NCBI RefSeq assembly: GCF_000472285.1
Contig: NZ_KI421412.1
Coordinates: 324,048-387,219, forward strand
Length of the DNA: 63,172 bases
Direction of reading: 5' to 3'
Source of the DNA: Desulfuromonas sp. TF
GTDB lineage: Bacteria; Desulfobacterota; Desulfuromonadia; Desulfuromonadales; ATBO01
Shown piece after piece: positions 1-26,405 of this stretch (within the stretch, counting starts at the first letter, position 1; each line of letters starts with the position of its first letter). The position numbers were made by a program, and so were the translations under genes. The notes beneath the pieces were generated by a model. The model did not search any database. It saw only the letters and a program-made list of their open reading frames with translations, and had not been told where the DNA came from.

Positions 1-341
1 CTGCCGCCGGTCAGGTTCCTGCCGAGGCTGATGAGCTCAGCCAGCAGGGCGGGCTGATCATTGATGGCGAACGGCGCCAGGTCGGGATAGTTTTTGGTGG
101 GGTCCGGCTGCCCCGTTCCCAAAGTGCCCTTGTCCAGCTCTTTGGCCATCTCCAACCAATAGTAGGCATCGTATTCCGTCATGGTTATGACGTCGTCTAC
201 TACATAATAACTGCTCTTTTCCATCCAGTGAGAATAGGTCGAATACCTTTTATGAAAGGATATTCCATAAACGACAAGTACTCCGGCCAATAACACGAGA
301 AGATGTCTTTTATTCCAACCCATGGTTCCCAGACTGTTCAT
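1..341 (-). CDS. STT3-like oligosaccharyltransferase, N-terminal part (cut by window edge)
   Basis: Only the first 113 codons are present. One membrane segment (about residues 13-28) is followed by an exoplasmic stretch with E56-Y57-D58 and then AYYWLEMAKEL. This resembles the first acidic metal-binding motif and loop of STT3/PglB/AglB oligosaccharyltransferases, which move lipid-linked glycans onto proteins outside the cytoplasmic membrane. The start at 341 is preceded by GAGGTG at good spacing, and the gene lies 18 bases behind the last TMTC-like gene, so it is probably co-transcribed with it. The assignment rests on this short N-terminus. Another GT-C glycosyltransferase (for example a PMT/ArnT type) is possible. 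The missing WWDYG-type motif would lie outside the window. Confidence 0.5.
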   Translation of the reverse strand, partial: MNSLGTMGWNKRHLLVLLAGVLVVYGISFHKRYSTYSHWMEKSSYYVVDDVITMTEYDAYYWLEMAKELDKGTLGTGQPDPTKNYPDLAPFAINDQPALLAELISLGRNLTGG

Positions 342-359
342 AGCACCTCTGTAGATGAA

Positions 360-2237
360 TCAATTGCGCTCTCTCGACGGCCGCCAGGAAGCCTTCATAT
401 TCAGCAGGCGGATCAAATCGGCTTTCATCTCGGGACGGTCAAATTGCGAGACGATCTCGAGCTCTCTCCTGGCGGCGTCGACATCGCCGAGAAAGGCATA
501 GGCGACGCCGAGATGATAATGAACCTCGACGATTTTGCCGAGCCGATCGAGATTCTCTTCCAGCAGGGCTACCGTCTGGGGGAAGAGCCTCAGCTGGTTG
601 TACGCCATCCCCAGTATGACCAGGGCCGTGGTAGAGTCGGGATCAATCCGGATCGCGGTCTTCAGCAAAGGCACGGCTTCGGAGCTCCGATCGGTCATGA
701 TGTAAGCGTATCCGAGATTGTGGTAGGCTTCGGGCTTAAAAAAGGGATCCAGCTCCAGGGCCCGTCTCAGTGAAGCTATCGCCTCGGGAAACCGACCCTT
801 TCTGTTCAGAATCTCGCCCAGGTTATTGTATCCTCGGGCTTTTTCGGGAGATTTTGCCACCACATCCTGCCAGAGGCTGACGCCGTCCCCCCAAACATCG
901 TTGCGCTGATAGGTCGCGAAACCAAAAGCGAAGGACAACAGCAGGGTCATCCCGAGGATGAGACGGGGAACTCCGGCCGAACCGCTGAATTTGACAATTA
1001 CAAGAGATAAGGCCACGGAAAAGGCCGCGAACAGACCGAAGGAGGGGAGGTAGAGACGATGCTCGGCGATGACGTCCACAAGCGGGACAAGGCTCGACTC
1101 CACGGCCAGGGTGAGAAAAAACCAGCAGAGGCCGAAGGAAACCAGGCGGAGCGACGGGTCGACGGTGACGGAGGAGCCGGGGACGGTTCTGGAGCAGGGC
1201 GCATCGCCACCGGTTGAGGGGCTGGCGGAGCGGGTTCGCCAGAGAATGTACATGGCCAGGGAAAACATCGCAATCAGCAACAGGAACGACAGCAGAACCG
1301 GCGGGGTGAAAAACCGTGAATAATGGGGATAGTCGTAGTCGAGATTCTGGTTGACCGGCAGAACGAGCAGGCGCAGGTACGTGACCATCACCCGGAATTG
1401 GGTCAGCAGATAGTCCATTCTCGACAGGGTTCCGGCCGCTAGTGTCTTCTCGCTGAGGTCTGCCAGCAGCTGCCCCTTCGATGGAGTGCTCGTCAGAACG
1501 CTTATCGGCACCACGGGCAGGGTGGCCAGGAGCGGCGACAGATTCAGCAATCGTCTTTTCCAATCTCCCGTGAAAAAGCATGCTTCGTACAGCACGGCTG
1601 CAAGAGGCAGGGTGAAGGCGATCTCCTTGGTTTTCATGGCCAGGATTGCACATCCGACAGACCCCGCCGTGAGGATGAGGCCTTTTCGGGAGAAGATCTT
1701 CTCTTTTTCTCCGTCAAGAGCCAGCCTGCTCTTGACGTACAGCGCCATCGACAGCAGGTAAAACATTGTCGTCATGGACGCCATGCGCTGGACGATATAG
1801 GTCACCGCCTGGGTTTGGACCGGGTGCACGACGAACAGCAAGCCGGCCAGCAGCGCCACCAGGTTCGCGTGCGGCGCGAGCCGGCTCATGCGCAATCGCG
1901 GGGTCCTGAAGGTAAGCCGGGTCAGGTAAAAGGCCAATACAGCCGTGAACAGGTGGATAGAGAGGTTGACGAGGTGATATCCGACGACATTGAGCCCGCC
2001 AAAATAGTGGTTGAGGGCAAAGGAGAGATATCCGAGGATCCTGGGCGGATATAGATCCCCTTCCGTATGATCGGAGAAGAAGTTTTGCAGATCCTGAATG
2101 ACGGGATTGGAGGCAATGACATAGGTGTCATCCATCACAAAAGGAACCTGGAAGGTGTTGGCGTAGGCGATGCCGCCGGCCAGCAGGATCAGGAGGATTG
2201 CCGGCAGAACCTGCCGGTAGTGGCTAATTGCTTCCAT
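360..2237 (-). CDS. TMTC-like membrane glycosyltransferase with C-terminal TPRs (copy 3)
   Basis: A 625-residue protein with an N-terminal membrane anchor, a conserved acidic pair D36-D37 just outside the membrane (FVMDD context), about ten further hydrophobic segments, and a C-terminal domain of tetratricopeptide repeats from about residue 465. This is the layout of TMTC-type O-mannosyltransferases (GT-C fold, GT105), where the acidic pair is the catalytic motif and the TPRs face the exoplasm. It is the shortest of three tandem paralogues and overlaps the preceding one by 14 bases. The donor and target are unknown. Position after the cytochrome genes suggests surface cytochromes or other exported proteins as acceptors, which is inference. 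Family call is firm for 'GT-C plus TPR', less so for mannose. Confidence 0.75.
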   Translation of the reverse strand: MEAISHYRQVLPAILLILLAGGIAYANTFQVPFVMDDTYVIASNPVIQDLQNFFSDHTEGDLYPPRILGYLSFALNHYFGGLNVVGYHLVNLSIHLFTAVLAFYLTRLTFRTPRLRMSRLAPHANLVALLAGLLFVVHPVQTQAVTYIVQRMASMTTMFYLLSMALYVKSRLALDGEKEKIFSRKGLILTAGSVGCAILAMKTKEIAFTLPLAAVLYEACFFTGDWKRRLLNLSPLLATLPVVPISVLTSTPSKGQLLADLSEKTLAAGTLSRMDYLLTQFRVMVTYLRLLVLPVNQNLDYDYPHYSRFFTPPVLLSFLLLIAMFSLAMYILWRTRSASPSTGGDAPCSRTVPGSSVTVDPSLRLVSFGLCWFFLTLAVESSLVPLVDVIAEHRLYLPSFGLFAAFSVALSLVIVKFSGSAGVPRLILGMTLLLSFAFGFATYQRNDVWGDGVSLWQDVVAKSPEKARGYNNLGEILNRKGRFPEAIASLRRALELDPFFKPEAYHNLGYAYIMTDRSSEAVPLLKTAIRIDPDSTTALVILGMAYNQLRLFPQTVALLEENLDRLGKIVEVHYHLGVAYAFLGDVDAARRELEIVSQFDRPEMKADLIRLLNMKASWRPSRERN

Positions 2238-4170
2238 GGATGAAACCGTGGTTCGACTTCGATCCCAGCAGGCCCGACAGGGTAGCGGCGAAAGCGGAAT
2301 CGAATCGGGTCAGTATGTCCAGTTCTCGCATTGCGGCCTGACGGTTTCCGAGGAAAGCGTAAGCGGCGCCCAGATAGAATCGAGCCTCGGGCTCTTCTTT
2401 GACCCGATCGAGGTTCTGTTCCAGAAACGCGATCACATCGCGAAACCTGCCCCCCCGCATCAGAGCCGCGCCCAATTTCACATAGGCCTCCGTGAATTGC
2501 GGCTGGAGCCTGATGGCGGCCTGCAGCAGCGGCAGCGCGTCATCGGGCCGATCGCTGACCAGGTAGAGGTCGGCCAGGTTGTAGTAGGCCTTGTAATACC
2601 CGGGTTCGACCTCGATGGCCCGGGACATCATCCTGAAGGCGTCCGTCCTCCTGCCGGCCTGCTCCAGAGCGACGCCGAGATTGTTGGAGGCTCTGCCTTT
2701 GTTTGGGGATTTTTCGACCACATCCGTCCACAGGCGGACGGCATTCCCCCAGACGTGGTTGCGCTGCCAGGTGGCAAACCCAAGGGTCATCACCAGCGCC
2801 AGCGAAACCAGGGCCAGGCATTTCGCGCCGGTCGGCCGGCTAAGGTTCCGGGCCAGCAGGTAAAGGGCCGTGGCAAAGGCTGCTGCGATGCCGACGCTTG
2901 GCAGGTAGAGGCGATGTTCAACCAGCACGTCGACGATCGGAACAAAACTTGATTCGACGGCGAGGGCCAGGAAGAACCAGCAGAAGCCGAAGGCGACCAG
3001 TCGTGCCGCAGGATCGACGAGGCACGACGGGAGCCGCGCCCTGAGCGTCGAGGAAGCGCCGGCCCTCCGGGTGGCAAGGAACAGGAACATGGCCGCGCCG
3101 AAGAAGGCCGCCAGGAGCAGGAAGGAGAAAATGACCGGAGGGGTAAAAAAGGTCGCGTACACCGGGTGGTCGTAGTCGAGATTCTGGTTGACCGGAAAAA
3201 CCAGCAGCCGCAGGTAGGTAACAAGCACGCGGAACTGGGTGAACAGGTAATCGAGCCGGGAGATGTCGCTGCCGACCCGCAGCTGGTCGCCGGCGTCCAG
3301 CAGGATATGGTCGGAGGTCCCGCCGACACCGAGGATGGTCAGCGGAATGACGGGCAGGGTCGCCAGAAGCGGCGCCAGGTAAACCATGCGCTTTCGCAGC
3401 GCACCATGGAAGAAACAGAGCTCGTAGAGGAAAACAGCCAGAGGCAGGGTGAAGGCTATCGGCTTGGTCAGCATCGCCAGGACCGCGGAAAGAACCGCCC
3501 CGAAAATCAGCAAAACGGGCTTGATTCTTACCTTCGCGGCTGTGGCAGGTTCCTTCTCTGCCGGTTCCCGTTCACCGGAGCCTCCCCTCTCGCCGGATAG
3601 TCTGGCCATCACGTACAGGACGATGGACAACAGGTAAAACATGGTTGCCAGCGAGGTCATCCTCTGCACGATGTAGGTCACGGACTGAGTCTGGACCGGA
3701 TGAACGACGAACAGCAATGCGGCGAACAGGGGGATGAAAGATCGTCTGGAGGCGAAAAACGAAAGAATTCCCGGCTGCGTTTCCGGTCCCGCCGTCGGCT
3801 GCCTGTGGTGGTCCTCGAAAAATGGGGTGCAAAAGGTCAGTCGCAGCAGGGCGTAAACCAGCAGACCGGAAATCAAATGAATTATCAGATTAACCGCGTG
3901 ATAGCCGGTTACGTCAAGACCGCCGAAGTGGTAATTAAGAGCAAAACTCAGGTAGGCGACGCTCCGACCCGGCAGAAAGTATCCCGATCCGTACGGATAA
4001 AAGTTGGCGAGACTCCTGATCGCCTTATTGTTGACGATCGATGGCGTATCATCGAGAACAAAGGGCGCCTGGAAGGTGTTGGCATAAACGATAATGCCGG
4101 CCGACAGAATCAGCAGAGTGACAATCGATCGCCGCAGGCGGGGGTTAGTGAGTTCCATTGGAAAATCCAT
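2224..4170 (-). CDS. TMTC-like membrane glycosyltransferase with C-terminal TPRs (copy 2)
   Basis: About 648 residues from the ATG at 4170, which has AGGA upstream; an ATG four codons later (4158) is possible. It has the same architecture as its two neighbours: a first membrane helix ending in YANTF, an acidic pair D40-D41 (FVLDD context), many hydrophobic helices including the FVVHPVQTQSVTYIVQR stretch shared by all three, and C-terminal TPRs with WG...A-type repeats. Its 5' end overlaps the upstream paralogue's stop and its 3' end overlaps the downstream paralogue's start, so translation is probably coupled. The genes are clearly tandem duplicates but have diverged strongly, which points to different acceptors or successive sugar additions rather than dosage. 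Activity is inferred from family only. Confidence 0.75.
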   Translation of the reverse strand: MDFPMELTNPRLRRSIVTLLILSAGIIVYANTFQAPFVLDDTPSIVNNKAIRSLANFYPYGSGYFLPGRSVAYLSFALNYHFGGLDVTGYHAVNLIIHLISGLLVYALLRLTFCTPFFEDHHRQPTAGPETQPGILSFFASRRSFIPLFAALLFVVHPVQTQSVTYIVQRMTSLATMFYLLSIVLYVMARLSGERGGSGEREPAEKEPATAAKVRIKPVLLIFGAVLSAVLAMLTKPIAFTLPLAVFLYELCFFHGALRKRMVYLAPLLATLPVIPLTILGVGGTSDHILLDAGDQLRVGSDISRLDYLFTQFRVLVTYLRLLVFPVNQNLDYDHPVYATFFTPPVIFSFLLLAAFFGAAMFLFLATRRAGASSTLRARLPSCLVDPAARLVAFGFCWFFLALAVESSFVPIVDVLVEHRLYLPSVGIAAAFATALYLLARNLSRPTGAKCLALVSLALVMTLGFATWQRNHVWGNAVRLWTDVVEKSPNKGRASNNLGVALEQAGRRTDAFRMMSRAIEVEPGYYKAYYNLADLYLVSDRPDDALPLLQAAIRLQPQFTEAYVKLGAALMRGGRFRDVIAFLEQNLDRVKEEPEARFYLGAAYAFLGNRQAAMRELDILTRFDSAFAATLSGLLGSKSNHGFIHGSN

Positions 4171-6319
4171 GAGGCGAATTCCTGCCGAGCAGGCCGGCCA
4201 GGGTTGCGGCCAGTTTGGCATCGAGCGAGGAGACGATGTTCAGTTCCCGCAGGGCCGCCTCCCGGTTACCCAGGAAGGCGTAAGCCGAGCCGAGGTAGAA
4301 ATGAGCTTCGGCATTCCCGCCTACACGATCGATGTTCTGCTCAAAGAAGGAGATGACTTCAGGGAACCTCCCCGACCGCATCAGGGACGCCCCGTACAGG
4401 ACATAACCTTTCTTTTCCTCGGGATTGAGCTGCTGGTAGACCTGCAGCAGGGGTAAAGACAGCTCCGGACGCCCTTCGGCCAGGTACAGGTCAGCGAGAT
4501 TATAATAAGCCCTGAAATAATAAGGATCAACCTCGATGGCCGTGGAGAAGGCTTTGGTGGCTTCCATCGTCCTGCCCTCCTTGGCCAGGGCCACACCAAG
4601 ATTGTTGTTCGTTCTGCCTCTGTCCGGTGATTTCGCGACGGCATCCTCCCACAAGCTGACGCGATCCCTCCAGACGTGATTCCGTTGATACGCCGCAAAA
4701 CCAAGGCTCAGCACCAGGACGATCGCGACCGGAAAGAGTATTCTGCCGATGGACGGACCGGAGAATTTCTCGACCAGCAGATACAACAGGGTGGCAAAAA
4801 CAGCAGAGGCGCCGAAGCCGGGCAGATACAGGCGATGCTCCATGATCACGTCCGGGAGCGGAACAAAGCTTGATTCCACTGCCAGCGTGATAAAAAACCA
4901 CAGGATGCCGAAAGCGACGAGGCGCAGAGCCGGGTCAACGTTGGCAGCCCCCCGTGATGAGGACGGCACGCCGTGATCACGCCCGGCAAGAGACTGAGAT
5001 GCGTCACCTGCTCGCGTTGCCCGGAACAGGTAGGCGGCCAACCCGAAGAGGGCCGTCAGGAACAGAAACGACAGAAAGACCGGCGTGGTGAAAAATTTAT
5101 CGTAGAAAGGGTACTGGTGATCGATGTTCTGGTTGACGGGCAGAACCAGCAGCCGAATATAGGTGATCAGCACCCTGAACTGCGTAAAGAGATAAACTTT
5201 CCTGGGCATGACCGTGTGGGACCGCAGCCGGTCCCCGGTGGCCGAGAAGAAATCTCCATCAGGACTGACAGGGTTGCCGGGACTGAAGCCGCTTCTGGGA
5301 GCGACTTCGCCTGCCGGCTTGATCCTTGCCGCGCCCTTGGCCTCTTCCGGGGGGTCGACCTTCCTGGCGGTTAGGCTGATCTCCGGCAGGCTGAAGTCGG
5401 GAAGGCCGCTGATCCCGAGCAGGGAGATCGGCACGACAGGAAGGGTCAGCAGGACCGGCAGGAGGAAGCACAAGCGCCATCTCCACGGGCCCCGGAAAAA
5501 AGAGACCTCGTACAGCAGCGCCAACAGGGGCAGGGTAAAAGCAATTTCCTTGGTTTTCATGGCCAGTACTGCGCACACGACCGCGCCGGCGAGGAGCAGC
5601 GCATGGATCCCCTTCGTTTTCACCCTGGCAAGCGCGGAGACGTTTCTCTTGCTGGTATCTGAGGGGGCACTCTTCTTAGGCAAAGAGGGGCTGCGTGAGG
5701 CCTCGACGCCCAGGCGCATCTGCACATACAGCACCATCGACAACAGGTAAAACAGAACAGCAAGGGACGTCTCGCGCTGGACGATATAGGTCACTGCCTG
5801 CGTCTGGATCGGGTGCACAGTGAACAGAAGTGCGGCAAACAGGGGGATAAAACGCTCACGGGAAGCGAGACTGGAGAAGAACGAAGGAGGCGTTTCTTCC
5901 AGAACCTGGGACCCTGACCCATTGGCCCTGAAATAGGGGGTACGAAAGGTCTGGCGCAAAAGAGCATAGACCAGAAGGGCCGTGATAAGATGAATGCTCA
6001 GGTTGACCAGGTGATAACCGGTGACATCCAGACCCTGAAAATGGTAGTTGAGGGCGAAAGTAAAAATCGCTACAAAACGGTTAGGGTTGTCTATTTTATA
6101 CTGGAGAGGATTAGTGTAAAAATTGTCGAGATTTGTAATAAATATATTGTTTGTAATCTCTCTGAAGTCATCGAGAACAAAAGGTACATGAAAGGTGTTC
6201 GAATAGACGGCGATGCCGGCAATCAGGATCAGCAGAACTGCTGTAAGAGAGTGATTGAAATGATGCTTGATGTTCAAATTCCGTGGCTCCGTACTGCATT
6301 TAGGGTAGGATGTATGCAC
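4145..6319 (-). CDS. TMTC-like membrane glycosyltransferase with C-terminal TPRs (copy 1)
   Basis: The longest of the three paralogues (up to 724 residues). The listed start is a GTG; a TTG at 6277 has a better ribosome site (GGAG nine bases upstream) and gives a protein beginning LNIKHHFNHS, so the true start is uncertain. An acidic pair follows the first helix (FVLDD). A hydrophilic insertion of about 60 residues lies in the middle, in the same place where the other copies have shorter loops. TPRs occupy the last about 170 residues. The first 250 bases of the gene are AT-rich compared with its neighbours. It follows resB with a gap of about 70 bases and heads the glycosyltransferase block. 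Confidence 0.72.
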   Translation of the reverse strand: MHTSYPKCSTEPRNLNIKHHFNHSLTAVLLILIAGIAVYSNTFHVPFVLDDFREITNNIFITNLDNFYTNPLQYKIDNPNRFVAIFTFALNYHFQGLDVTGYHLVNLSIHLITALLVYALLRQTFRTPYFRANGSGSQVLEETPPSFFSSLASRERFIPLFAALLFTVHPIQTQAVTYIVQRETSLAVLFYLLSMVLYVQMRLGVEASRSPSLPKKSAPSDTSKRNVSALARVKTKGIHALLLAGAVVCAVLAMKTKEIAFTLPLLALLYEVSFFRGPWRWRLCFLLPVLLTLPVVPISLLGISGLPDFSLPEISLTARKVDPPEEAKGAARIKPAGEVAPRSGFSPGNPVSPDGDFFSATGDRLRSHTVMPRKVYLFTQFRVLITYIRLLVLPVNQNIDHQYPFYDKFFTTPVFLSFLFLTALFGLAAYLFRATRAGDASQSLAGRDHGVPSSSRGAANVDPALRLVAFGILWFFITLAVESSFVPLPDVIMEHRLYLPGFGASAVFATLLYLLVEKFSGPSIGRILFPVAIVLVLSLGFAAYQRNHVWRDRVSLWEDAVAKSPDRGRTNNNLGVALAKEGRTMEATKAFSTAIEVDPYYFRAYYNLADLYLAEGRPELSLPLLQVYQQLNPEEKKGYVLYGASLMRSGRFPEVISFFEQNIDRVGGNAEAHFYLGSAYAFLGNREAALRELNIVSSLDAKLAATLAGLLGRNSPHGFSNGTH

Positions 6320-6391: not shown

Positions 6392-7828
6392 TCATTTCCA
6401 GCAGGTCCGTTCTTGCACTCTGCCTGCTTTGGCACTTTGGATGTCGCGATAGACCGGATCATCGGGAGCGAGACCGGAGCCGGAGACCAGGGTCGGATCC
6501 CTGTCGATGCTGGCGCCCAGCTCTTCAAACCGACCCTCGAAAGCGAGTTTGTTCTTGTTGCTGGTGCCGCAGAGCAGGATTGCCGACTCCCGTGGCCCTT
6601 TCGGGGTAATCCTGACCCAGAGCCTGCGGTGCGAGAGGAAGAAGCTGACGGCCAGGCCGGCGACCAGCAGAATGCAGCCGCTGAAGACGAGCGGGACGCC
6701 TGGATCTTTGGTGACGATGAGCATAGTTTCGTAGTACTGTCGAAACGTGAGAGCATAGTCCATCCCTGACTGCCTTATAGATGCCGTGCCCTTGTTGTCG
6801 ATCCAGAACTCGGATGGCTCATCCCCACCATTTGTGCTGAATCGGATTTTTGCCCTGAGCACGGCCCCTTCCAGGTCGCGCTGCAGTTCCTCAATACGCA
6901 GGAGGGCATGGCCTTCCCGCCAAGGAATATCCCGTTCGGCAGGGACACGGAAAGCCTGTTCTATCTCTGCCGAGCGGTTGCGGACCAGGATGTAGAATTC
7001 CTCGAGTGGGGCGGAGTCGGCAAGATAGAAGGTAAAGCCCTTATGCGCGAGCGGATCATTCACGATGACCGATTTCCGATAAGGGGTTTCGAGTTCGGGA
7101 TCGAAAATGGTCAGGTCCGCCTGGTACTGCCGGATCGATCCGTCCTGATAATGGGTCCTTTCGAACCGGTCGTTTTGCAGATTGAACCCCAGTGGAACCG
7201 GGCGCCTGTTCTCCTGCAGAAAAACATCGCTCGTGACTCTCCCCTCCGGCAGGAAAACGAAAGCCTTCAGGCCGAACTGGGTGCCGAGTAAGGCCCCGAT
7301 CATAATAACCAGGACGCTAAGATGGACAACATATACGCCAAGTCTTGTCCAAGCGCCCTTCTGAAAAAAAAGCAGCACGGACCCGTCTTCCCGGCCCACC
7401 CTCCGCGGATTATTCCAACCGGCTTGGGCCATGCATCCCTGCACTCGCTCCACGGCGTGCTCCGCCGGCAACATGGAACCGGTTCGATGGGTCAGGCCCA
7501 TCTTTTCCAACTGCGGCAGCTCCTCCAGGTTGTCCAGGAATGCCATGCGCCAGACGACGGGCAAGCGCTCGATGCTGCATACGATAAGATTGACGGCAAA
7601 CAGGCACAGCAGAAGGGTAAACCACGTGGAAGTATACATGTTCGTAAGGTCGAACAGGTCCAGGAGCGTGGCAACGTCCGGCCCGAATTCCTCGGCATAG
7701 AAGGAAGGCGACTTTCCTTGTTTTATCACTGTCCCGATGATCGAAGTGGTTGCCAGGACTATCAGGGAGATCAGGGCGAGCCTGATTGAGGCGAAGAAGC
7801 GCCAGACCTTGTTTTTCGTTTTTGACAT
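6392..7828 (-). CDS. resB: ResB/Ccs1-family cytochrome c maturation protein
   Basis: A 478-residue protein starting MSKTKNKVWRFFASIRLAL, with three N-terminal hydrophobic segments (about residues 12-32, 65-85, 170-190), a large exoplasmic domain with the LEDxxPxEEFYIL-like region, and a final membrane helix near residue 385. This is the System II ResB/Ccs1 layout. ResB works with CcsA (ResC) to carry heme across the membrane and attach it to reduced CXXCH cysteines. No ccsA gene is in the window. A ResB copy inside a cytochrome operon may be a dedicated maturation factor for the unusual load of hemes here. The C-terminal tail of about 60 hydrophilic residues is family-typical in Geobacter-like bacteria as far as I recall. 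Confidence 0.88.
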   Translation of the reverse strand: MSKTKNKVWRFFASIRLALISLIVLATTSIIGTVIKQGKSPSFYAEEFGPDVATLLDLFDLTNMYTSTWFTLLLCLFAVNLIVCSIERLPVVWRMAFLDNLEELPQLEKMGLTHRTGSMLPAEHAVERVQGCMAQAGWNNPRRVGREDGSVLLFFQKGAWTRLGVYVVHLSVLVIMIGALLGTQFGLKAFVFLPEGRVTSDVFLQENRRPVPLGFNLQNDRFERTHYQDGSIRQYQADLTIFDPELETPYRKSVIVNDPLAHKGFTFYLADSAPLEEFYILVRNRSAEIEQAFRVPAERDIPWREGHALLRIEELQRDLEGAVLRAKIRFSTNGGDEPSEFWIDNKGTASIRQSGMDYALTFRQYYETMLIVTKDPGVPLVFSGCILLVAGLAVSFFLSHRRLWVRITPKGPRESAILLCGTSNKNKLAFEGRFEELGASIDRDPTLVSGSGLAPDDPVYRDIQSAKAGRVQERTCWK

Positions 7829-7870: not shown

Positions 7871-9181
7871 TTAGAAGGTCTTTCGTCCTGATCGCAGGGT
7901 CGGATCCGATATCCAACTGTCATCCATGCCATGGCTGTGGCAGTTGCCGCAGTCGATGTGCTTGGTTCCAGGAGAATGGCAGTCGTTGCACCCATTTTGG
8001 GCATAGGGGGCATCGGCAACAAGGTGATGGACGTATTCCCATGTGTCGGGATTGCTTCCTTCTCCCGCAGCCAGGTCATCGGGATGACAACGCTTGCAGA
8101 CATAGCTCTTGGTTTCGGTAGAGACTTCCGTGACGACTCCCTCCAAATCCTCACCATTGATCCGCCGCCGCAGCATCATGGTGTTTTCAGATCCGTGGGA
8201 TTCATGGCAATCAAGGCAGGAGAGGACGAAATTGGTATTGCCCGCCAGGGAGTAAGGATCGCGAAGGTTATCGGCGCCGTCCCTCGGGGCCGTGCCATGC
8301 TTGTCGTGGAGGGTCACGGAGTCGTAGCTGGCATCATCCCAATTGATCGGCCTGATGTCACGGCCGAGGCTTGTGCTTGCAATGATGTTGTCATAGTCGT
8401 GGCAGGTTGTGCAGAAGCCCGCATAATCAGGCGTATTGCTTCCGTTGGGGGCTCCCTCGCCCGCCGGCTCCCGATCGGTGCCCAAAGAATAAGGGGCCTC
8501 ATAGCCGGCGAGATAGTTCGACATCACTTCGGTTTCCCCCCATAACGCGGCAGCTGCCGGTTTGGTGATGGCGCTCAGAAGAGGAAATCCGGTTTGGGAG
8601 CTGTCCCAGTTGCGCTTGGCAAGGTGCGGATCATGGCAGGCACTGCACGGATTGCCACGTTTGGCGAACCACGATGAATAGGACGGGTCGTTGCTCAGGA
8701 AATTCCAGATGTCATACAGGTTGTGGTAAGAGGCCTGGTTGAAAGCGTCCAGGATCGATTGAGGGCCGCTCAAGGCATCGGCTCCGCCGAAAACTTCACT
8801 GTAATCCCTGTTATCCACTTGTTGACCGGAACTGCCGGAGTGGCAGTAAAAGCAGAAATTGTCGGACTCGAGGTAAATGTTCTGGGTGCGTCCCGTGTTG
8901 AAGTTTTCGGCAAAAAGAGCATGAGGAGCTGCTCCGTCGGCAGGATCGGGCTCCACCCCCTGAATGCTGGCGTGCTGCTCATGACAGTGGGCACAGTTGC
9001 CGGTAGCATAATTGCCCGTGCTGGAACGACTGACGCCGTAGCCGGAGATGCCGTCTCCATAGTTGCCGTGGGCGGAATCGAGGTATGGACCTCCCCACAC
9101 CGTGGATGCAGCCAGGACTATCCCCCCGAGCATGGAGACCACAAGGCCAAGGTATTTTGCTGAATCAGAAGATTTGAGCAT
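7871..9181 (-). CDS. Octaheme c-type cytochrome, exported
   Basis: The start at 9181 (MLKSSDSAKYL) is chosen because AGAGG sits seven bases upstream; in-frame ATGs at 9199 and 9211 lie upstream without a good site. The 436-residue product has a signal peptide and eight CXXCH motifs (CAHCH, CFYCH, CSACH, CTTCH, CLDCH, CKRCH, CNDCH, CGNCH). The wide spacing between motifs and isolated histidines are typical of extracellular or periplasmic electron-transfer cytochromes of Geobacter-like bacteria rather than of the packed c3/c7 type. It lies between an NHL gene and resB in the same orientation. No named orthologue is recognised. Its location (periplasm, surface or secreted) cannot be read from the sequence: there is no lipobox. 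Confidence 0.85.
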   Translation of the reverse strand: MLKSSDSAKYLGLVVSMLGGIVLAASTVWGGPYLDSAHGNYGDGISGYGVSRSSTGNYATGNCAHCHEQHASIQGVEPDPADGAAPHALFAENFNTGRTQNIYLESDNFCFYCHSGSSGQQVDNRDYSEVFGGADALSGPQSILDAFNQASYHNLYDIWNFLSNDPSYSSWFAKRGNPCSACHDPHLAKRNWDSSQTGFPLLSAITKPAAAALWGETEVMSNYLAGYEAPYSLGTDREPAGEGAPNGSNTPDYAGFCTTCHDYDNIIASTSLGRDIRPINWDDASYDSVTLHDKHGTAPRDGADNLRDPYSLAGNTNFVLSCLDCHESHGSENTMMLRRRINGEDLEGVVTEVSTETKSYVCKRCHPDDLAAGEGSNPDTWEYVHHLVADAPYAQNGCNDCHSPGTKHIDCGNCHSHGMDDSWISDPTLRSGRKTF

Positions 9182-19071: not shown

Positions 19072-19706
19072 TGCGTAAATCCCTTTTTAAGCCAGAGGTT
19101 AATGATTTCTTTTGACATCTGCCGGCTAAGCCCGGTCACCGAGTAAATCGTCCCAAGGTGCATGGTCAAGGTGTAGTCGGTTCCCAGACGCCGATGAAAT
19201 GTCGTCCACAGGGTTTCAGCGGTTAAACCGTTCCTGACCTCAACTTCAACGACGACCTTAACGTCCCCGCGGGAGTTTTCCACCATTTCAAGAATGACTC
19301 CTGTAATCAGGATCTCGGCATCGACACGATCGGCTACAATCTGCATTTCTTCAATGGATGGGGGCACGCCGGGCAGGAGCTTCAATTGCTGGAAGATTTT
19401 CAGTATATCTCCCTGCTGGAGGAGCAGATAGTCTCCCGAAGCATGGAGCTGCGCCGCGAAAGTATCGGCAAAGATCGTCCCACCCTGCGGAAAGCCGGAG
19501 TCATTCACAAACGGCAAAACCGCTACCCGGCAAACCGGACTCGATGGAAGGGGTGAAAACTCCCTGTGAATCGGCACCCGGCCGGTCTCGGGCAGAAGCG
19601 GCAAGCTCGTCAGTCGGGGTCCGCAACCACAGCAAAGCAGCCCCAGCAGCAAGAAAAAGGCACGATAGCAGCTTTTCACCCGATACTTCCTCAAACCGAA
19701 AAACAT
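19053..19706 (-). CDS. CsgG/TolB-like lipoprotein (second of two)
   Basis: A 217-residue lipoprotein with the signal FFLLLGLLCCGC and then GPRLT. The mature part begins with RVAVLPFVNDSGFPQGG, followed by FADTFAAQLHASGDYLLLQQGD and later DAEILITGVILEMVE. This is the alternating pattern of CsgG, FlgO and TolB-N-like domains, in which outer-membrane lipoproteins form assembly or export complexes. CsgG itself forms the curli secretion pore, but the transmembrane hairpins of CsgG are not obvious here. It sits seven bases behind the Ig-like protein gene and overlaps the PPIase gene. Confidence 0.65.
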   Translation of the reverse strand: MFFGLRKYRVKSCYRAFFLLLGLLCCGCGPRLTSLPLLPETGRVPIHREFSPLPSSPVCRVAVLPFVNDSGFPQGGTIFADTFAAQLHASGDYLLLQQGDILKIFQQLKLLPGVPPSIEEMQIVADRVDAEILITGVILEMVENSRGDVKVVVEVEVRNGLTAETLWTTFHRRLGTDYTLTMHLGTIYSVTGLSRQMSKEIINLWLKKGFTQCNATS

Positions 19707-19713
19707 TAACTAG

Positions 19714-21219
19714 TTAAAACTGGTCGACCCAGCCATGGGATGTTCCCGCCGGTTTTTTCTCCTGGCGCTGTGCTTGCAAAAAGGAAACCAACTCCTCGAT
19801 CTTCTCTTGGGACGTGTTCCCCAAGGCATCCCTTATCGCGACATAGCCTTGAAGTTTATTGACGTCAGTCCCGGCGGGGAGAGTGATCTCCTTTTTGGCC
19901 GGAAGCTTCACCCCTTCCTCCTGCAGGAGGATCGTCCCGTCAACAGTCAAAATCTCCAGCCTCCAGGATTCGATCGGCACTCTTCCGGAATGCTTCAAGT
20001 CGACGACTATTTTTTCTTTGGCTCTCGAAAGGGTCAAATCGGCCTTGGGAGGTTTTCTGAAAATTTCCACCTGCCGCGAAGCCGTTGCCATATTCCCGGC
20101 CAGGTCCCAGATCTCGACCACGGTTTTGTATCTTCCGTCCTTAAGAAGGCCCAGCTGGTCGCGTGCCGACCACTCGAAACTCGGGGGCATCTCGCCGGTT
20201 TCGCTCATTTCACCGATCAGGGTATCTCCATCCGAATACAGTGCGAAACGCCAGCGGGACAGGGGCTCACGCTGCGTGAATCTCGGAATGAGCACGAGGC
20301 TCCCCTTGAAACCGTAAACGCCATTGATGGGCATGGCCCCTACCAACTGGATATCGAACTCCGGCGGCTTACTGTCGACGACATAGAAGCTGAGAATCGT
20401 TTCCTCTCTTCTGTCTAAGAGAGGCCAATCGAGAATCAAGGTCACGGTGTAGCGGCCGCTTTTCTCCCCCGCCAGCCAGGTTGCGCTGAATGTATTGCCG
20501 CGAGTGTTGGCCGTTGCCGGATGAAGATCGTCTCCGGCCTTGAAATAAACCTCCGGGGGGGGACCGTCGGTTTCGCGCAAACGCACCTGGCAGCGCACTT
20601 CATCGCCCGGTCGGACATTTCTCGGTTCAAGCAACGACGTGTCGATTCCAACGATCTTCGTTCGCTGGACCTCGCCGGCGAATTCCCGCGGCCAGTTCGC
20701 CACGGCCTCATATATCAGTCTCGGCTCCAGGTCGGCAAGGGACTTCGGTTGGGTGATGGCAAGGGGCTTGAGCTCATCGCTGATGCCCATGCTGCCTGCA
20801 TAGGTCCATACGGTACGAATGTCGCTGGTACGGACCAGGCTCAGGACCAGGCCGACGGACGATTCAGGGGCGTCTCCGCGATGAGTGACGGTGCCGAGCA
20901 GAACGAAGCCCGCGTCCAGTTCCGTCCGGGTTCTGGAGATGTAATAGCTTTCCAGATGGCCGACCGTTCGTATCCGGCTTGCAGCCATGAACTCGATGAC
21001 CTCATCGGGACTGACCACCGTCTGACCGGCTCCCTCCAGGCTTTCCGCCAGAAGTTCGGTCATGTGAAGGTTGACGCCGTTCCGCCCGTCACTCAGGTCC
21101 TGAAGAGGAAAGACGGCGATTGCCATTCTTGGCGGGGCGGGAGCGCCTGCTGCCAGACAGACAGAGGAGAACGTCAGAACGAGCATTATCAATGTGAACG
21201 TTCGCAACAACATTTTCAT
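19714..21219 (-). CDS. Exported protein with TolB/CsgG-like N-domain and Ig-like repeats
   Basis: About 501 residues from the chosen start MKMLLRTFTL at 21219. A signal peptide is followed by MAIAVFPLQDLSDGRNGVN, then GAGQTVVSPDEVIEF and DAGFVLLGTVTHRG. This is the same fold pattern as in the two lipoproteins on either side. From about residue 190 on there are beta-rich segments (RPGDEVRCQVRLRET, SGRYTVTLILDWPL, DGRYKTVVEIWDLAGN, GYVAIRDALGN) that read as three or four Ig-like or FlgD-like domains. No cysteine pairs and no heme motif. Function unknown. A periplasmic or surface structural part of an export complex is plausible. Confidence 0.6.
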   Translation of the reverse strand: MKMLLRTFTLIMLVLTFSSVCLAAGAPAPPRMAIAVFPLQDLSDGRNGVNLHMTELLAESLEGAGQTVVSPDEVIEFMAASRIRTVGHLESYYISRTRTELDAGFVLLGTVTHRGDAPESSVGLVLSLVRTSDIRTVWTYAGSMGISDELKPLAITQPKSLADLEPRLIYEAVANWPREFAGEVQRTKIVGIDTSLLEPRNVRPGDEVRCQVRLRETDGPPPEVYFKAGDDLHPATANTRGNTFSATWLAGEKSGRYTVTLILDWPLLDRREETILSFYVVDSKPPEFDIQLVGAMPINGVYGFKGSLVLIPRFTQREPLSRWRFALYSDGDTLIGEMSETGEMPPSFEWSARDQLGLLKDGRYKTVVEIWDLAGNMATASRQVEIFRKPPKADLTLSRAKEKIVVDLKHSGRVPIESWRLEILTVDGTILLQEEGVKLPAKKEITLPAGTDVNKLQGYVAIRDALGNTSQEKIEELVSFLQAQRQEKKPAGTSHGWVDQF

Positions 21220-21466
21220 ACGCTCGCACTCAACGTTCTCCCGAATCAATTCACATGACCTTTGGCAGGCCAGGTGACACAAAACCCCTCGTGAAAAGCG
21301 TTCAGCATCACTGCAGGTCCGGGCATTTCAACACGTTATAGACTACAACGATTCGGCAAACGGCTAAAGGTCATCATGCGAAAAAAATGCGTAGTCGTTC
21401 CACAGTAGAGATATGTGCAACAACACAGTGTTGATGGCTGGCAGGAATTGAGGTTATCCATTGATT

Positions 21467-22021
21467 TTACTCAATCGTATCGATAAGCTCGCGCAGCAGA
21501 TCCATGGTGACCAGGAACTCGTCTTTTGGCGCCAGGCCGAACAGTCGATCCGACAGAGAGTACCCACTGCCCCGGCCGGTTGCCTGCCAGAGCAGGGTTC
21601 CTGTTTCGCTGTCGATAAGGCGCAGGGTCATGACAACTTCAGGGTACCTGGCGTTGCCCCGGCTTTGAATCTTCTGTTCAACCGAACCGAAGATAAAAGC
21701 CTCGACCTTGAGAACCCGGCCAAGTCTTTTTAACGTCCCCGTATCGATGGGCGCCCCGGGAGAAATCACTTCCCGCTGAAGAGCGATGTCCACCCGCCCC
21801 TTGTCAACCACATCGAACACACCGCTGGTCAGCATCTGGGTCATGGCGAATTCGCGAATACGCTGCGTGTTTCCACCTTCGAAAGGGAGCACGGCAACCG
21901 TCTTGACATAGCCCAGGCTGGTATTTTCCCGTGTATACGACTTTATCATCTCGCCGGAACTGCAACCCACCAGACAAATAAGCATTGAGGAAAGAATCGT
22001 CCTGACTAAAAATCTGCTCAT
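21467..22021 (-). CDS. CsgG/TolB-like lipoprotein (first of two)
   Basis: A 184-residue protein with lipobox MLICLVGC. The mature part opens with TVAVLPFEGGNTQRIREFA, followed by FDVVDKGRVDIALQREV, KVEAFIFGSVEQKI and TLRLIDSETGTLLWQATG. This is the classic order of a CsgG/GNA1162-like or TolB-N-like domain: a sum-of-components 'name, rank, test for presence, report' pattern seen in outer-membrane assembly lipoproteins. It is separated by about 245 bases from each neighbour, so it may have an additional promoter (a weak TTGCAA / TATCTT pair lies upstream). Confidence 0.68.
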   Translation of the reverse strand: MSRFLVRTILSSMLICLVGCSSGEMIKSYTRENTSLGYVKTVAVLPFEGGNTQRIREFAMTQMLTSGVFDVVDKGRVDIALQREVISPGAPIDTGTLKRLGRVLKVEAFIFGSVEQKIQSRGNARYPEVVMTLRLIDSETGTLLWQATGRGSGYSLSDRLFGLAPKDEFLVTMDLLRELIDTIE

Positions 22022-22265: not shown

Positions 22266-24539
22266 TTACAGGGTCAGCTGCAAAACGGTCTGAAAGTTAT
22301 AGGAGTTGTTCCCCTCGGAATAGACGTAAGTGCCTCGCGTGCTGAACCTCAGGTTTTTGCTTATGGACCAGACCCCCAGCATCGACACGTTGTCGACCGT
22401 TCTGTCCTCGACAATCAGATGGTCCAGGTTCATTCTCAGGTTGATGGTGTCGGAAGAGACGAGAAGAAGACTCAGGTTCAAGGCGACCCTGTCCCTGCTT
22501 TCCTGACCCCGCCTGGCATCATTGAAATAGGTGCCGCTCATGTTGACAAAGTCGGAGGGCTGATAACGCAGGCCGAGAGTCGTTCCGGTTTCCTGAAGGG
22601 TCCTGCTTTCGACGGTGGACTGCACGTCGCGATACCTGAAGATCGCAAAGCCGTCCAGGCTCCGCCTGAGACGGGCGTTAAGTTTCAAGTTGCTCGTTAA
22701 TATGTCGGTCACCTGCGAATCCCCCTCGATTCCCAATTCATCCAGGGTTTCGTAGGAGGTCGTCCAGTTGGCGCCCAGGTCGGGATAAAGCTGCAAATTG
22801 TTGTTCAAGGTGTATTTGTTGCTTTCCCCCATCAGTTCTCCGCCGGTGTATCTTTCCCGGCGGGTGACGCCTAAGGAGGTCCTCACCGTTCTCAACAGCC
22901 TGGTCCCCACGCCCAGGGCGTAGGTTCGGCTGACCGAATCAGGTTCTCCGGTCTGGAGATAAGTCACCTGATTGAAGTTCAGGGTCGGCGAGAAACGGCG
23001 GTGGGGGCGCCACTGGAGCGAACCGCTCACAAACTGCCGCTCGTTTGTCGTGGTCGTCGTCGAGAGCTCCCGGTCAACCCGGTCCAGGGAGAAGTTGCCA
23101 TTGAATTTCAAGGTCCTGGAGAGGTTCACGGTCGTGCCGACGTTCGTGAGGTAGCTTTCCGTGGTCCTGTTGTTGACCGTCCCCGTGAGTCGCTGGAACA
23201 CCTTGATCTCGACAAACGACAGTGGAACGACGGTCTGGTTGAAGGCCACAAGCATGATTTCGCTTTCGGGGCTGCCCCCGAGCAGGTCTCCTACCGCCAA
23301 CTCGATCCTTCTTGCGTCGGAGTCAAACACGAAGGGGACCTGGGTGTTGACAAGTTCCCATTCATCGAAGGGGTTTCTGACATAGAGGGACCATTCCAGG
23401 GCCGAAATCTCGGCAGGGGACAACTGGGTCGAAGAACCGAGATAAAGATGCACGGAGTCCATGATCTCGGGAAGGTCGAAATCGATCCCGAGATGCGCGC
23501 GCAACTGGCCGTCGACGACAAACTCGGGATCGTCGAATTCGGGAAAATCGTTGGGCCTGTCGCTGAGGACGGCATTTACTGTCGGTTCGATCTCCGCAGG
23601 GTCCGGATCGATAACGGGGTCAGAGACGGCGGACGATGTGGTCAGCCCTTCCAACTGCTGATCGAAGGAGGACTGGCCGGACGTCGTTTCGGTTTCAGTC
23701 GTGCTGTATTGCTGGGAAAACTTTAAATAGATTCGATCTTTCCAGAGTCGGGCATCTGTTTCAACGCGTCCAAAGTGCGTAATGCTGTCGACCATGACGT
23801 TGCTGAGCGGTTCTTCCGTCTGATTGTTGGAAAATCGGTAATAAAGCTTGGCCAGGTTCAGATCGAATTCGAGGGCCAGGTCGGAGTTTTCTTCGATGGA
23901 GGTAACCTCATCCATGACCGAGTCCGTCCGCTCTTCGTAATTGAGCCGAATGATGGGCCAGTATGGAATACGCCAGTTGTTGCTCAGTCCGGCTCCCCAG
24001 ACCTGGGTCGAACTTTCAAAGCCCCGATTGTTCTCACGGAACATTTTCTGGCCGGAGAGGCGGGCGGTGAATATGTCGTTTCTCAGGACCACCCTTCCTG
24101 AAGGAGTCAGCACTTCGGTGGTCAGCGGTTTCATCTGCCGTTCCACAGTGCTCTGTGTTCGATCCACGGTATTCTGGGAATACGTCACGCCTCCAGCGAA
24201 GCTGATCGCGTCGGTCAACCTGTAGTTCAGGGTTGGTTCTACCCCCAGGCTGTATCGCTGCAGGAATTCATCCTGGGTCTCCGCGGCTGACCCCCCGAAC
24301 TGTCGATACAGCCAATAAGCATTGAAATCGATAGCGAATGCGGGCGACAGGGCGCCGGCCGCCAGAATGAAAAGGAGCAGGGAAAGAATCGGCAGACAAG
24401 GAGGGAATCTCACATTTCTCAAGTGAGGAACCAACACCTTCAGAAAGTTGACGGCACGGGCGCGATGCCCCTGGGGAATCCGGTTGCCAACCATATCAAC
24501 AATCCTGTCCTGCCACTTCAATCGCGCCGTTCCTTGCAA
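22266..24539 (-). CDS. Large outer-membrane beta-barrel protein
   Basis: Up to 757 residues; the true start may lie some 30-45 codons inside because the signal peptide core (ILSLLLFILAAGALSPAFA) begins near residue 50. The mature part is dominated by alternating hydrophobic/polar strands with aromatic ends (LNYRLTDAISFAGGVTYSQNT, RLNYEERTDSVMDE, LGLRYQPSDFVNMSGTYF), typical of a 20-plus-strand barrel. A central soluble domain lies around residues 290-450 (PEIMDSVHLYLGSS and similar, resembling a lectin/jelly-roll insertion). It ends in QLTL, not the usual aromatic residue. It is the first gene behind the -24/-12 promoter at 24651 and is the best candidate for the pore that sheathes the 16- or 26-heme cytochrome. 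Confidence 0.72.
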   Translation of the reverse strand: MQGTARLKWQDRIVDMVGNRIPQGHRARAVNFLKVLVPHLRNVRFPPCLPILSLLLFILAAGALSPAFAIDFNAYWLYRQFGGSAAETQDEFLQRYSLGVEPTLNYRLTDAISFAGGVTYSQNTVDRTQSTVERQMKPLTTEVLTPSGRVVLRNDIFTARLSGQKMFRENNRGFESSTQVWGAGLSNNWRIPYWPIIRLNYEERTDSVMDEVTSIEENSDLALEFDLNLAKLYYRFSNNQTEEPLSNVMVDSITHFGRVETDARLWKDRIYLKFSQQYSTTETETTSGQSSFDQQLEGLTTSSAVSDPVIDPDPAEIEPTVNAVLSDRPNDFPEFDDPEFVVDGQLRAHLGIDFDLPEIMDSVHLYLGSSTQLSPAEISALEWSLYVRNPFDEWELVNTQVPFVFDSDARRIELAVGDLLGGSPESEIMLVAFNQTVVPLSFVEIKVFQRLTGTVNNRTTESYLTNVGTTVNLSRTLKFNGNFSLDRVDRELSTTTTTNERQFVSGSLQWRPHRRFSPTLNFNQVTYLQTGEPDSVSRTYALGVGTRLLRTVRTSLGVTRRERYTGGELMGESNKYTLNNNLQLYPDLGANWTTSYETLDELGIEGDSQVTDILTSNLKLNARLRRSLDGFAIFRYRDVQSTVESRTLQETGTTLGLRYQPSDFVNMSGTYFNDARRGQESRDRVALNLSLLLVSSDTINLRMNLDHLIVEDRTVDNVSMLGVWSISKNLRFSTRGTYVYSEGNNSYNFQTVLQLTL

Positions 24540-24884: not shown

Positions 24885-26189
24885 TTACTGCTTCGAGGTG
24901 TGGCAGGCGAGGCAGCCATCGCCCGGATCGCCATTGCCGGCGACCTGAGCATCGTAGTCGAAGGTCAGCATGTGGCGGTACGGGGTTGCATGGGAGCCGT
25001 GGCAGGACAGACACATAACCATGTCGCTGCCGGCGGTGACGGAAGCGGACTGGCCACCGGTGATGTCCTGGCGGGCAACCTTGGTGTTGACGTTGTAGGT
25101 GGTCATGTCTTCAAACTCGCCGCCGGTGGGCAGGACGTAGTCCGAAGGATGGCGCAGGAAGGCGCCGGAGGTGCCGTTGCCGTCGGATCCGTCACCAACG
25201 GTGTGGAAGAGGCCGTGGCAGGTCGTACAGAAACCGCTCTGCGAGTTATTCGGAACCACCAGGATGGAGTCCCAGGTCATGCGGGAGCCGAGGCCGCCGT
25301 TGGCGCCGTCGTTGCCTTCAACATGGCAGTCGCCGCAGCTCTGGCCGACTTTGGCGCCGGGCTTGCCGTAGTACTCGTTGTGGCTGTTTTCGTCAACGTT
25401 TTCCCAACGGTCGCCGTCGACGTCGTTGCCGAAACCTTTGAGGCCCGGGATCAGGCGATAGCCCGCGGCGACATAATCAGCATCGTGCTGGGTCGGAACG
25501 GCGACGTTGGTGGCGTCTTTGACGCCGTCGGTGATCTTGTGGTGAGAACCGGCGATGGCGGCCATGCCGGTACGCTTGACGGCGTTCTCGAAGGTGTCGT
25601 CAGTGGTGTCGCCAGCGGTGCCGTTGTCATTGGTTGAGCCGGAGAGGAGCTGGGAGCGGGTGCCGTGGCAGCCGCCGGCGCCGGCGCAGGAGAAGGTGTC
25701 GAAGTTGGTGACGTCGGTGTAGACGACAGAGTGGGTGCTGTCGCCACGGTACTGGCCGGGAGCGTTGCCCTGAGCATAGTTGGGGTCGCCGGCGAACAGT
25801 TCCTTGACGTTGTGGCCGCTGTGGTTGCCGGCGCCGCCGGTGTTGATGTACCGGAAGTTACCGCCGGCCAGGTCGCCGGTGGGGTCGGCGTGCATGACCT
25901 GGGGAACTTCGTTTCCGCCGTAGTCGACGATCTTCTTCATGGTGCCGGCGGGGTTGGTGGCGTGGCAGCCGATGCAGTCGTACTTCAGCAGGTTCGCCAG
26001 AGGAGTGACCGTGGAGCTCGTGCCGGTGTAGACACCGCCGGCATAATCGCTCTTCTTCGCCACAGCCTGACCTTCATAACTGTTGTGCATGGTATGGCAT
26101 GCGGAACAGTCACCTTCCAACGCCATTGCAGATGTCGCCATCGCAAAGGACAAGAGCATGATTGCTCCAAATACAAAACCCTTCTTCAT
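24885..26189 (-). CDS. OmcS-like secreted multiheme cytochrome (candidate filament subunit)
   Basis: The start MKKGFVFGAIMLL at 26189 has AGGAGG nine bases upstream; the open frame extends further but without support. The 434-residue product has a signal peptide ending SAMA and no lipobox, so the mature protein may be secreted. Six canonical motifs (CSACH, CIGCH, CGDCH, CTTCH, CLSCH, CLACH) plus CAGAGGCH, a CX5CH that aligns with the third heme of its paralogue at 12215-13327. The N-terminal GDCSACHTMHNS resembles the start of mature OmcS. Codons are markedly GC-ending (GGC, GCC), it has its own -24/-12 promoter, a long leader, an ideal ribosome site and a strong terminator, all pointing to high expression. 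Filament formation is inference. Confidence 0.85.
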   Translation of the reverse strand: MKKGFVFGAIMLLSFAMATSAMALEGDCSACHTMHNSYEGQAVAKKSDYAGGVYTGTSSTVTPLANLLKYDCIGCHATNPAGTMKKIVDYGGNEVPQVMHADPTGDLAGGNFRYINTGGAGNHSGHNVKELFAGDPNYAQGNAPGQYRGDSTHSVVYTDVTNFDTFSCAGAGGCHGTRSQLLSGSTNDNGTAGDTTDDTFENAVKRTGMAAIAGSHHKITDGVKDATNVAVPTQHDADYVAAGYRLIPGLKGFGNDVDGDRWENVDENSHNEYYGKPGAKVGQSCGDCHVEGNDGANGGLGSRMTWDSILVVPNNSQSGFCTTCHGLFHTVGDGSDGNGTSGAFLRHPSDYVLPTGGEFEDMTTYNVNTKVARQDITGGQSASVTAGSDMVMCLSCHGSHATPYRHMLTFDYDAQVAGNGDPGDGCLACHTSKQ

Positions 26190-26356
26190 TTTCTTCCTCC
26201 TTTTTCTTGCCTGGAAATAAAGTAGAACCCATGGCCTCTGAACCTGCACCATGCAGGCCCTTAAGGCCGCCTCGACCAAACCCAACGAATCAACATTCCA
26301 TTGGGGTTAAAACATACAAGGTAAAAACATACAGAATTTGAATTTTCACAGATAGC

Positions 26357-26374
26357 TTGCAACGAGCGGACCAA
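26357..26374 (-). promoter_or_regulatory. Sigma-54 (-24/-12) promoter candidate for the OmcS-like gene
   Basis: On the minus strand TTGGTCCGCTCGTTGCAA has GG and GC 12 bases apart and keeps TTGG, CG and TTGCA of the consensus; the CA after GG is replaced by TC. AT-rich DNA flanks it upstream (runs of T), as is usual for IHF-bent promoters. The start would be near 26346, leaving a leader of about 155 bases with a small inverted repeat (CCTGCA/TGCAGG at 26245-26259 region). Confidence 0.5.
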
Positions 26375-26405
26375 AATAAAAAAATAAGTTCAAATTAATG
26401 GAAAA

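Follow-up and report, generated by a model that had tools for sequence, protein, structure and literature searches.

A putative osc-type cytochrome cluster extended by ResB, TMTC-like and STT3-like genes in Desulfuromonas sp. TF

What does a row of multiheme cytochrome genes make when it runs directly into genes resembling glycosyltransferases? The question is raised by a stretch of 63,172 nucleotides from Desulfuromonas sp. TF, a bacterium of the metal-respiring type (contig NZ_KI421412.1, positions 324,048 to 387,219; hereafter the window), in which an earlier sequence-only reading had proposed a locus at positions 1-26400 for making, folding, exporting and glycosylating an extracellular cytochrome. 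Shen et al. 2025 (Cell Chem Biol 32:239) reportedly described the osc (omcS-companion) cluster in Geobacter sulfurreducens, and the earlier reading proves largely right: judging from sequence, the minus-strand genes from 24539 to 6392 are an osc-type cytochrome-nanowire assembly cluster in a variant form with additions. ResB, TMTC-like and STT3-like genes are genuinely linked to it, and the same linkage is seen in a second family (genome G100). The gene content, the synteny, the co-occurrence of a ResB clade with an osc subfamily, the rarity and linkage of the STT3-like gene, and the GT-C fold of one TMTC-like model are established, and the TMTC-like and STT3-like enzymes may glycosylate the cytochrome.

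The osc-type core

All window genes described in this section lie on the minus strand. From 24539 to below position 1, they are a putative outer-membrane barrel gene (22266-24539, start uncertain), T1 (21467-22021), T2 (19714-21282), T3 (19053-19706), a peptidyl-prolyl isomerase (PPIase) gene (17449-19071), the 26-heme (15500-17485) and 16-heme (14310-15500) cytochrome genes, propeller A (13336-14226, a likely start within the longer open reading frame [ORF] 13336-14496), a 7-heme cytochrome gene (12215-13327), propellers B (10758-12215) and C (9277-10749), an 8-heme cytochrome gene (7871-9211), ResB (6392-7828), three TPR proteins, and the start of the STT3-like gene. The intergenic gaps run from -77 to +83 bp between T2 (19714) and the STT3-like start, through the ResB and TMTC-like genes, in line with the overlaps and tiny gaps noted earlier; they are longer upstream, at 244 bp between the barrel gene and T1 and 184 bp between T1 and T2. 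A 6-heme OmcS-family gene (24885-26189; the ORF opens at 26285, with the likely start MKKGF at 26189) lies upstream of the barrel gene. It is followed by an intrinsic-terminator-like hairpin (24826-24795, minus strand) with a 14-bp stem and then T9. Because this strong hairpin separates the 6-heme gene from the barrel gene, the 6-heme gene is probably a transcription unit of its own, and we rejected the proposal of one continuous operon from the OmcS-like gene downward. A search of positions 1-30000 against Rfam gave no match at the gathering score.

The core order is conserved. In a tblastn comparison of 19 genes of the window against ten loci of the order that carry the PPIase, T1-T2-T3-PPIase-26-heme-16-heme-propeller A is kept in 10/10, the propeller of G079 being truncated where its contig stops. 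The barrel gene stands ahead of T1 in nine of the ten (homologs adjoining T1 share 22-28% identity), the exception being the G100 contig, on which it was not found. An OmcS-family gene follows the core wherever the contig continues. The cluster appears to extend past 26400, since a 12-heme c-type cytochrome gene (27579-28385; 12 CXXCH motifs; homologs at 35-52% identity by tblastn) probably belongs with the set: its homologs occur in eight of the ten related loci, seven adjoining the barrel gene and the G088 copy adjoining ResB. PPIase relatives (E<=1e-8) were found in at least 30/136 genomes of the order, and a PPIase scan of the named genome collection returned no relative. The order count is a minimum, as one control stretch in G107 turned out to contain another, more distant set (L220, 171-9658). 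This set is diverged, lies far from the first one of that genome, comprises T1, T3, PPIase, 26-heme and 16-heme genes and has an OmcS match just outside it; paralogous osc machineries may therefore serve other cytochromes.

Most protein assignments made earlier held. The CXXCH counts of the 26-, 16-, 8-, 7- and 6-heme ORFs agree with those given, with synteny as further evidence for the first four. The PPIase is of the PPIC type and OscH-like (PF13145, E 2.5e-24). All three propellers have NHL or other propeller-type matches (PF01436 in A and C; weak matches in B, all below curated cut-offs). The putative barrel gene is present, but the barrel itself had no Pfam match. For the three proteins called CsgG/TolB-like, the outcome is divided: T1 passes the LpoB cut-off (PF13036, E 2.3e-6; 28.0 bits, cut-off 22.3) but falls below that of CsgG (15.9 bits vs 20.8), and T2 and T3 have no such match. 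Synteny and profile comparison support T2, with a T1-related N-terminal domain and a C-terminal extension, and T3 as relatives of T1; the profile comparison links the three at 98.2-99.9% probability, the value for T1 with T3 being inflated because their sequence sets shared at least one sequence.

The 6-heme protein has six CXXCH motifs as in OmcS, and a profile of 22 relatives, built without the evident OmcS sequences of L131 and L135, has OmcS 6ef8 as its sole match among solved structures (E 5.4e-21). The name OmcS-like thus stands by family profile but not by single sequence. The 7-heme protein is a paralog of the 6-heme protein (43 and 40% identity over two parts) and by analogy may occupy the place of OscC/OmcT. 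Comparable clusters contain direct OmcS matches, in L135 (Candidatus Schekmanbacteria; E 3.5e-120), L131 (Nitrospiraceae Ngb-4; E 1.1e-99) and G155 (E 8.4e-129). An AlphaFold2 model of the 6-heme protein, made from a 6-row alignment, reached a mean predicted local distance difference test (pLDDT) score of 29.4. The assignment to osc draws on composition, gene order and OmcS homology. As the osc core is already described for Geobacter, the core itself is not new, and the earlier claim that this combination lacked a description fails for this part; what looks new is the extension by ResB, TMTC-like and STT3-like genes, together with the recurrent association of TMTC-like genes with cytochrome genes. 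The portions of the literature consulted contained no description of either, and Shen et al. 2025 may mention glycosyltransferases.

The ResB, TMTC-like and STT3-like genes

The ResB assignment was confirmed (PF05140, E 1.6e-84), and the gene is the genome's second copy of this system II heme-delivery component. ResB matches occur in 118/136 genomes of the order. In a tree of 20 sequences (the window copy and 19 other retained loci, the G088 row being on a long branch), the window ResB and the copies of G100, G079 and G088 form a 100/100 clade. These three are the genomes with the nearest PPIase (44-47% identity), the clade ResB lies at the osc locus in all four, and each of the four has one further ResB. 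There was no ResC among the scanned neighbors of the window ResB. A private ResB, if true, would mean that cytochrome maturation is split by client.

The three TPR proteins that follow (minus strand; 4145-6319, the true start probably later; 2224-4221; and 360-2237) had been read as GT-C/TPR glycosyltransferases, and the evidence agrees, with C-terminal TPRs in all three and a GT-C domain in the single copy folded. The model of this copy, the third, has a pLDDT of 80 and shows a GT-C domain joined to a TPR domain. The best structural match of the GT-C domain is the Pmt1-Pmt2 O-mannosyltransferase (Z 20.7, root-mean-square deviation 4.7, 368 aligned residues), followed by further Pmt and oligosaccharyltransferase chains and by ArnT 5f15 (Z 17.6). 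The 50 rows shown by Foldseek are TPR proteins, and the GT-C domain emerges only with the second aligner. Among the motifs, D36 and D37 of the DD motif (M1) are invariant, so are the K and final T of KE(T/Q)xxT (M4), and ExRxY is present in place of ERxxY (M7). In M4, window copy 2 has P for E and reads TKPIAFT, against TKEIAxT in its aligned relatives. No curated TMTC-type domain of Pfam was matched, the families at E<=0.01 being of TPR or repeat type, and for this reason we call the proteins TMTC-like.

The STT3/PglB-like gene enters the window with its first 113 codons only (3-341, minus strand); its body, on L004, matches PF02516 (E 4.1e-8), the L004 stretch just outside the window start being masked. 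The earlier assignment therefore stands for the protein, of which the window itself holds a small part. STT3 relatives are rare, occurring in 3/136 genomes of the order (E<=1e-15) and 3/277 of the class (E<=1e-30). The three bearers are the window genome, G100 and G069; in the first two the gene is at this place, and in G069 it lies in a glycan locus. WWDYG is the catalytic motif of STT3/PglB; it is present in the G100 protein, and because FWEYG replaces it in the window genome, we use the name STT3-like. Downstream of the window are genes for a flippase, GNAT/FemAB proteins, a methyltransferase, an arylsulfate sulfotransferase (ASST), a sulfotransferase, a deacetylase, GT4, CysD, CysN/C, and GT2. 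A further STT3 (80% identical), paired with a flippase of its own, lies about 25 kb downstream of the window (L005, 12211-19862), together with a 669-aa protein that matches STT3 in part.

Linkage to cytochrome genes in other genomes

In G100, which belongs to another family, locus L095 carries the propeller C, 8-heme, ResB, TMTC-like, STT3-like and 6-heme genes in this order on one strand, and the osc core lies on another contig, which stops within a different part of propeller C. ResB is present at the osc loci of G079 and G088 without a TMTC-like or STT3-like gene seen. Conservation of the block, the check proposed earlier, held for the core order and, for ResB-TMTC-STT3, extended to one other family; TMTC-like genes are mostly absent from the other OmcS regions examined.

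TMTC-like genes of the order tend to have large cytochromes nearby. Those with at least seven hemes lie within 10 kb of a TMTC-like gene in 8/12 loci of the order vs 1/20 control stretches, where the 12 loci come from eight genomes (four of these without a control stretch) and include L095, the osc block itself, and L106, with a mis-called ORF scored as a miss, and where the controls have round rather than random coordinates in seven genomes, the sole one with such cytochromes being the second osc-like cluster L220. The count is 7/11 loci without the G100 osc block (p ~9e-4), and 8/12 vs 2/20 at a threshold of four hemes. Four of the neighboring cytochromes are similar to decahemes of the OmcA/MtrC kind, with TIGR03507 matches that do not reach the cut-off (E 1e-43 to 1e-58).

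Among the best 80 of 575 TMTC-like loci in the named collection, 17 have a cytochrome with at least four hemes in view and three an OmcS-type gene (L131, L135, and L141). The 20 loci nearest the window hold 10 of the 17, and the other 60 hold seven. Geomonas strains are represented among the named loci. L135 has the order TMTC-OmcS-T1-T3-PPIase-25-heme-16-heme; L131 combines TMTC-like genes with a 12-heme gene, a propeller and a pair of OmcS-type genes, of which one was tested against OmcS; and the OmcS-family gene of L141, cut by a contig end, is 36% identical to that of the window. At the class level, OmcS (E<=1e-60) is found in 43/277 genomes and TMTC-like proteins (E<=1e-60) in 65/277. The two lie within 7-15 kb of each other in at least six of the 43 OmcS-bearing genomes, all of genus g65, a lower bound because at most four candidates per genome were scored, with positions compared by eye. 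The TMTC-OmcS adjacency thus spans Schekmanbacteria, Nitrospiraceae, Deferribacteres and six genomes of g65. In the four of these six genomes that were inspected more closely (G166, G168, G171, and G175), further, more distant GT-C/TPR genes directly precede a propeller-OmcS pair.

A tree of 90 TMTC-like proteins (quick method, first 520 residues; L126, L132, and L136 left out as repeated contigs) places the window copies and the G100 osc copies in one clade, with a Shimodaira-Hasegawa-like approximate likelihood ratio test (SH-aLRT) value of 90. This clade is near a starred five-row clade in which four members adjoin OmcA/MtrC-like cytochromes. On this tree, OmcS/osc linkage takes five changes for eight linked rows (including L127, which has no OmcS-type gene in view), at least three of them forced by starred branches, and the linkage therefore had more than one origin or underwent repeated losses.

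Several other arrangements were observed. Arrays of five and four GT-C/TPR genes lie near OmcS genes in the g65 loci L244 (1809-18299) and L252 (3883-19489), respectively. In L161 and L194 (Nitrospirae), a 13-heme cytochrome follows a TMTC-like gene by less than 100 bp on the same strand. L127 (899-13533), from a metagenome-assembled genome of Geobacteraceae, has two T1-like proteins, a 42-heme cytochrome of 1079 aa related to the 26-heme one, and then two TMTC-like genes.

The cluster has electron-transfer neighbors in the window, which holds an electron-transfer island of ~43 kb (all genes on the minus strand). A response regulator and a HAMP histidine kinase (28878-31172), possible regulators, lie just upstream of the 12-heme gene. 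Beyond them, the row at 31500-35845 looks like a porin-cytochrome conduit, with a 13-heme cytochrome that has a lipoprotein-like start, a 10-heme cytochrome and a 404-aa protein without a Pfam match. A 1238-aa protein with 16 hemes and a PKD domain (36275-39991) and a 9-heme OmcA/MtrC-like protein (40347-42947; TIGR03507 below cut-off) come next.

Possible function, rival explanations and known systems

The explanation that fits best overall, to which we give an even chance of being right, is a variant osc cluster with a dedicated ResB and a glycosylation module that acts on cluster products. These products would be the 6-heme protein encoded at 24885 and its 7-heme paralog. The PPIase would fold the OmcS-family cytochromes, the barrel candidate and T1-T3 would export them, the propellers would shape the product, and the 26- and 16-heme periplasmic cytochromes would feed them. 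The dedicated ResB would supply heme to the many-heme products, and the TMTC-like and STT3-like enzymes would move sugars from lipid carriers onto the products on the periplasmic side of the inner membrane, before export, using glycans from the downstream island (flippase, glycosyltransferases, sulfate activation, and sulfotransferases). Catalysis at each step, the export, the formation of filaments and the choice of the protein that is glycosylated are all inferred. The proposal of making, folding and exporting an extracellular cytochrome finds support in the osc-like composition and the core synteny. In a broader form, TMTC-like GT-C/TPR proteins would serve, in several bacterial phyla, specifically to glycosylate multiheme cytochromes outside the cell (wires of the OmcS type and OmcA/MtrC-like surface cytochromes), having been recruited to such loci several times independently, and here a private ResB and an STT3-like protein would round off the maturation of a nanowire that is glycosylated and possibly sulfated; we hold this form only tentatively and lean toward doubting it.

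A number of observations weigh against these proposals. With the single 6-heme sequence, phmmer found no solved structure at E<=0.01, OmcS included. The G100 block spans two contigs linked only via propeller C parts at their ends. No TMTC-like gene was found on the stretches read at the ten synteny loci (G079 and G100 being cut by contig ends and the G100 copy lying on another contig). These loci include G079 and G088, which both share the ResB, and 40 kb were covered at G088 and at each of the seven osc loci that are more distant. Among the 80 loci, 63 have no cytochrome with at least four hemes in their flanks, which are often short, and several lie in glycan clusters. In 20 further OmcS regions, chosen for long contigs among the 43 genomes (two being short; G155 and the four g65 genomes G166, G168, G171 and G175, all covered already and the latter four selected for their TMTC genes, were left out), one has a TMTC-like gene (G177, already among the g65 six), compared with 0/19 controls, two of them short. 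The idea that TMTC-like genes are a general part of osc was rejected on this count. The window STT3-like protein has FWEYG in place of WWDYG. Copy 2 has Pro for the Glu of the KExxxT-like motif, unlike its relatives; the Glu of this motif type is modeled as a metal ligand in TMTCs, according to the consulted portion of PMC7801869, and therefore not all three copies need be active. Across 19 cytochromes, neither N-glycosylation sequons nor Ser/Thr are consistently in excess, and we rejected an enrichment in the cytochromes of STT3/TMTC genomes; a single one of the 19 reached 0.014 for sequons without correction, and it comes from G088, a genome with no STT3 match. Given the 19/20 OmcS regions without TMTC, its absence in the stretches read of G079 and G088, and the lack of sequon excess, the module is an accessory of some osc clusters.

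The 19/20 OmcS regions without TMTC-like genes and the missing sequon signal also speak for a rather unlikely rival, in which the TMTC-like and STT3-like genes belong to the downstream surface-glycan island, of O-antigen or exopolysaccharide type, and act on other acceptors, the adjacency being incidental or due to a shared surface-gene neighborhood. The glycan genes downstream (flippase, GNAT/FemAB, deacetylase, GT4, CysD, CysN/C, and sulfotransferases), the second STT3-Wzx pair ~25 kb away and other TMTC-like genes that adjoin the same kind of Wzx-GT4-GT2 genes (L098 and L101) all suit it. It is harder to reconcile with the same ResB-TMTC-STT3 order in another family, with TMTC-OmcS adjacency in other phyla and in g65, and with the placement of the window and G100 TMTC clade near that with OmcA/MtrC-adjacent members. 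We regard as more improbable still an ordinary osc cluster with a non-filament product, in which the OmcS-family proteins would be monomeric or periplasmic carriers and the barrel with the 26- and 16-heme cytochromes would form a porin-cytochrome conduit. The 6-heme protein alone has no detectable OmcS match and its fold was not predicted (pLDDT 29), as this would allow, but PPIase, T1-T3 and OmcS-family genes occur together in the ten loci compared, and PPIase, 26-heme and 16-heme genes accompany OmcS in other phyla and families, with OmcS matches of E 1e-129 to 1e-99.

OmcS and OmcE wires are reported to be glycosylated, with a coat proposed to insulate them, in the consulted portion of PMC9473688, and the portions of the literature on this glycosylation that were consulted named no enzyme. 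Genes repeatedly linked to OmcS-type and OmcA/MtrC-like cytochromes are testable candidates for wire glycosylation.

Compared with known systems, the 6-heme protein shares with OmcS 6ef8 six hemes, an N-terminal CxxCHTMHNS, a C-terminal CLxCH and the family-profile match (E 5e-21), but it lacks a single-sequence match and is a putative filament former at most. Like the TMTC O-mannosyltransferases of the GT-C/PMT clan (PMC7801869, consulted in part), the window proteins have a GT-C membrane domain, an invariant DD and C-terminal TPRs; they differ in being bacterial, in having no Pfam TMTC-type domain, in a partly kept KExxxT and in ExRxY for ERxxY. The STT3/PglB likeness consists of PF02516, a partial PglB match and WWDYG in G100, against FWEYG in the window genome and a PglB match of 80 bits vs a cut-off of 1300. 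ResB resembles the ResB/CcsB of system II cytochrome c maturation by its PF05140 match but is a second genome copy in a separate clade. The closest comparison is the G. sulfurreducens osc operon, which, in the consulted portion of PMC13194489, comprises the OmcS paralogs omcT and oscC, OscH for folding, OscE/F/G for secretion and OscD for morphology, and which is also described in PMC12977616 (seen in part), where the 26-heme GSU2495 is named. Both systems have OmcS-family genes, a PPIase (as OscH), a channel-like trio, a propeller and a 26-heme cytochrome in one cluster, the likeness to the named G. sulfurreducens genes being one of composition, order and OmcS homology. We take OscH to be a PPIase and OscD a beta-propeller. 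T1-T3, three mutually related proteins in position, may correspond to the OscE/F/G trio by analogy. In the window, by contrast, there are two OmcS-family genes that have diverged, the main one stands apart from the run, and the run continues into a second ResB and the TMTC-like and STT3-like genes.

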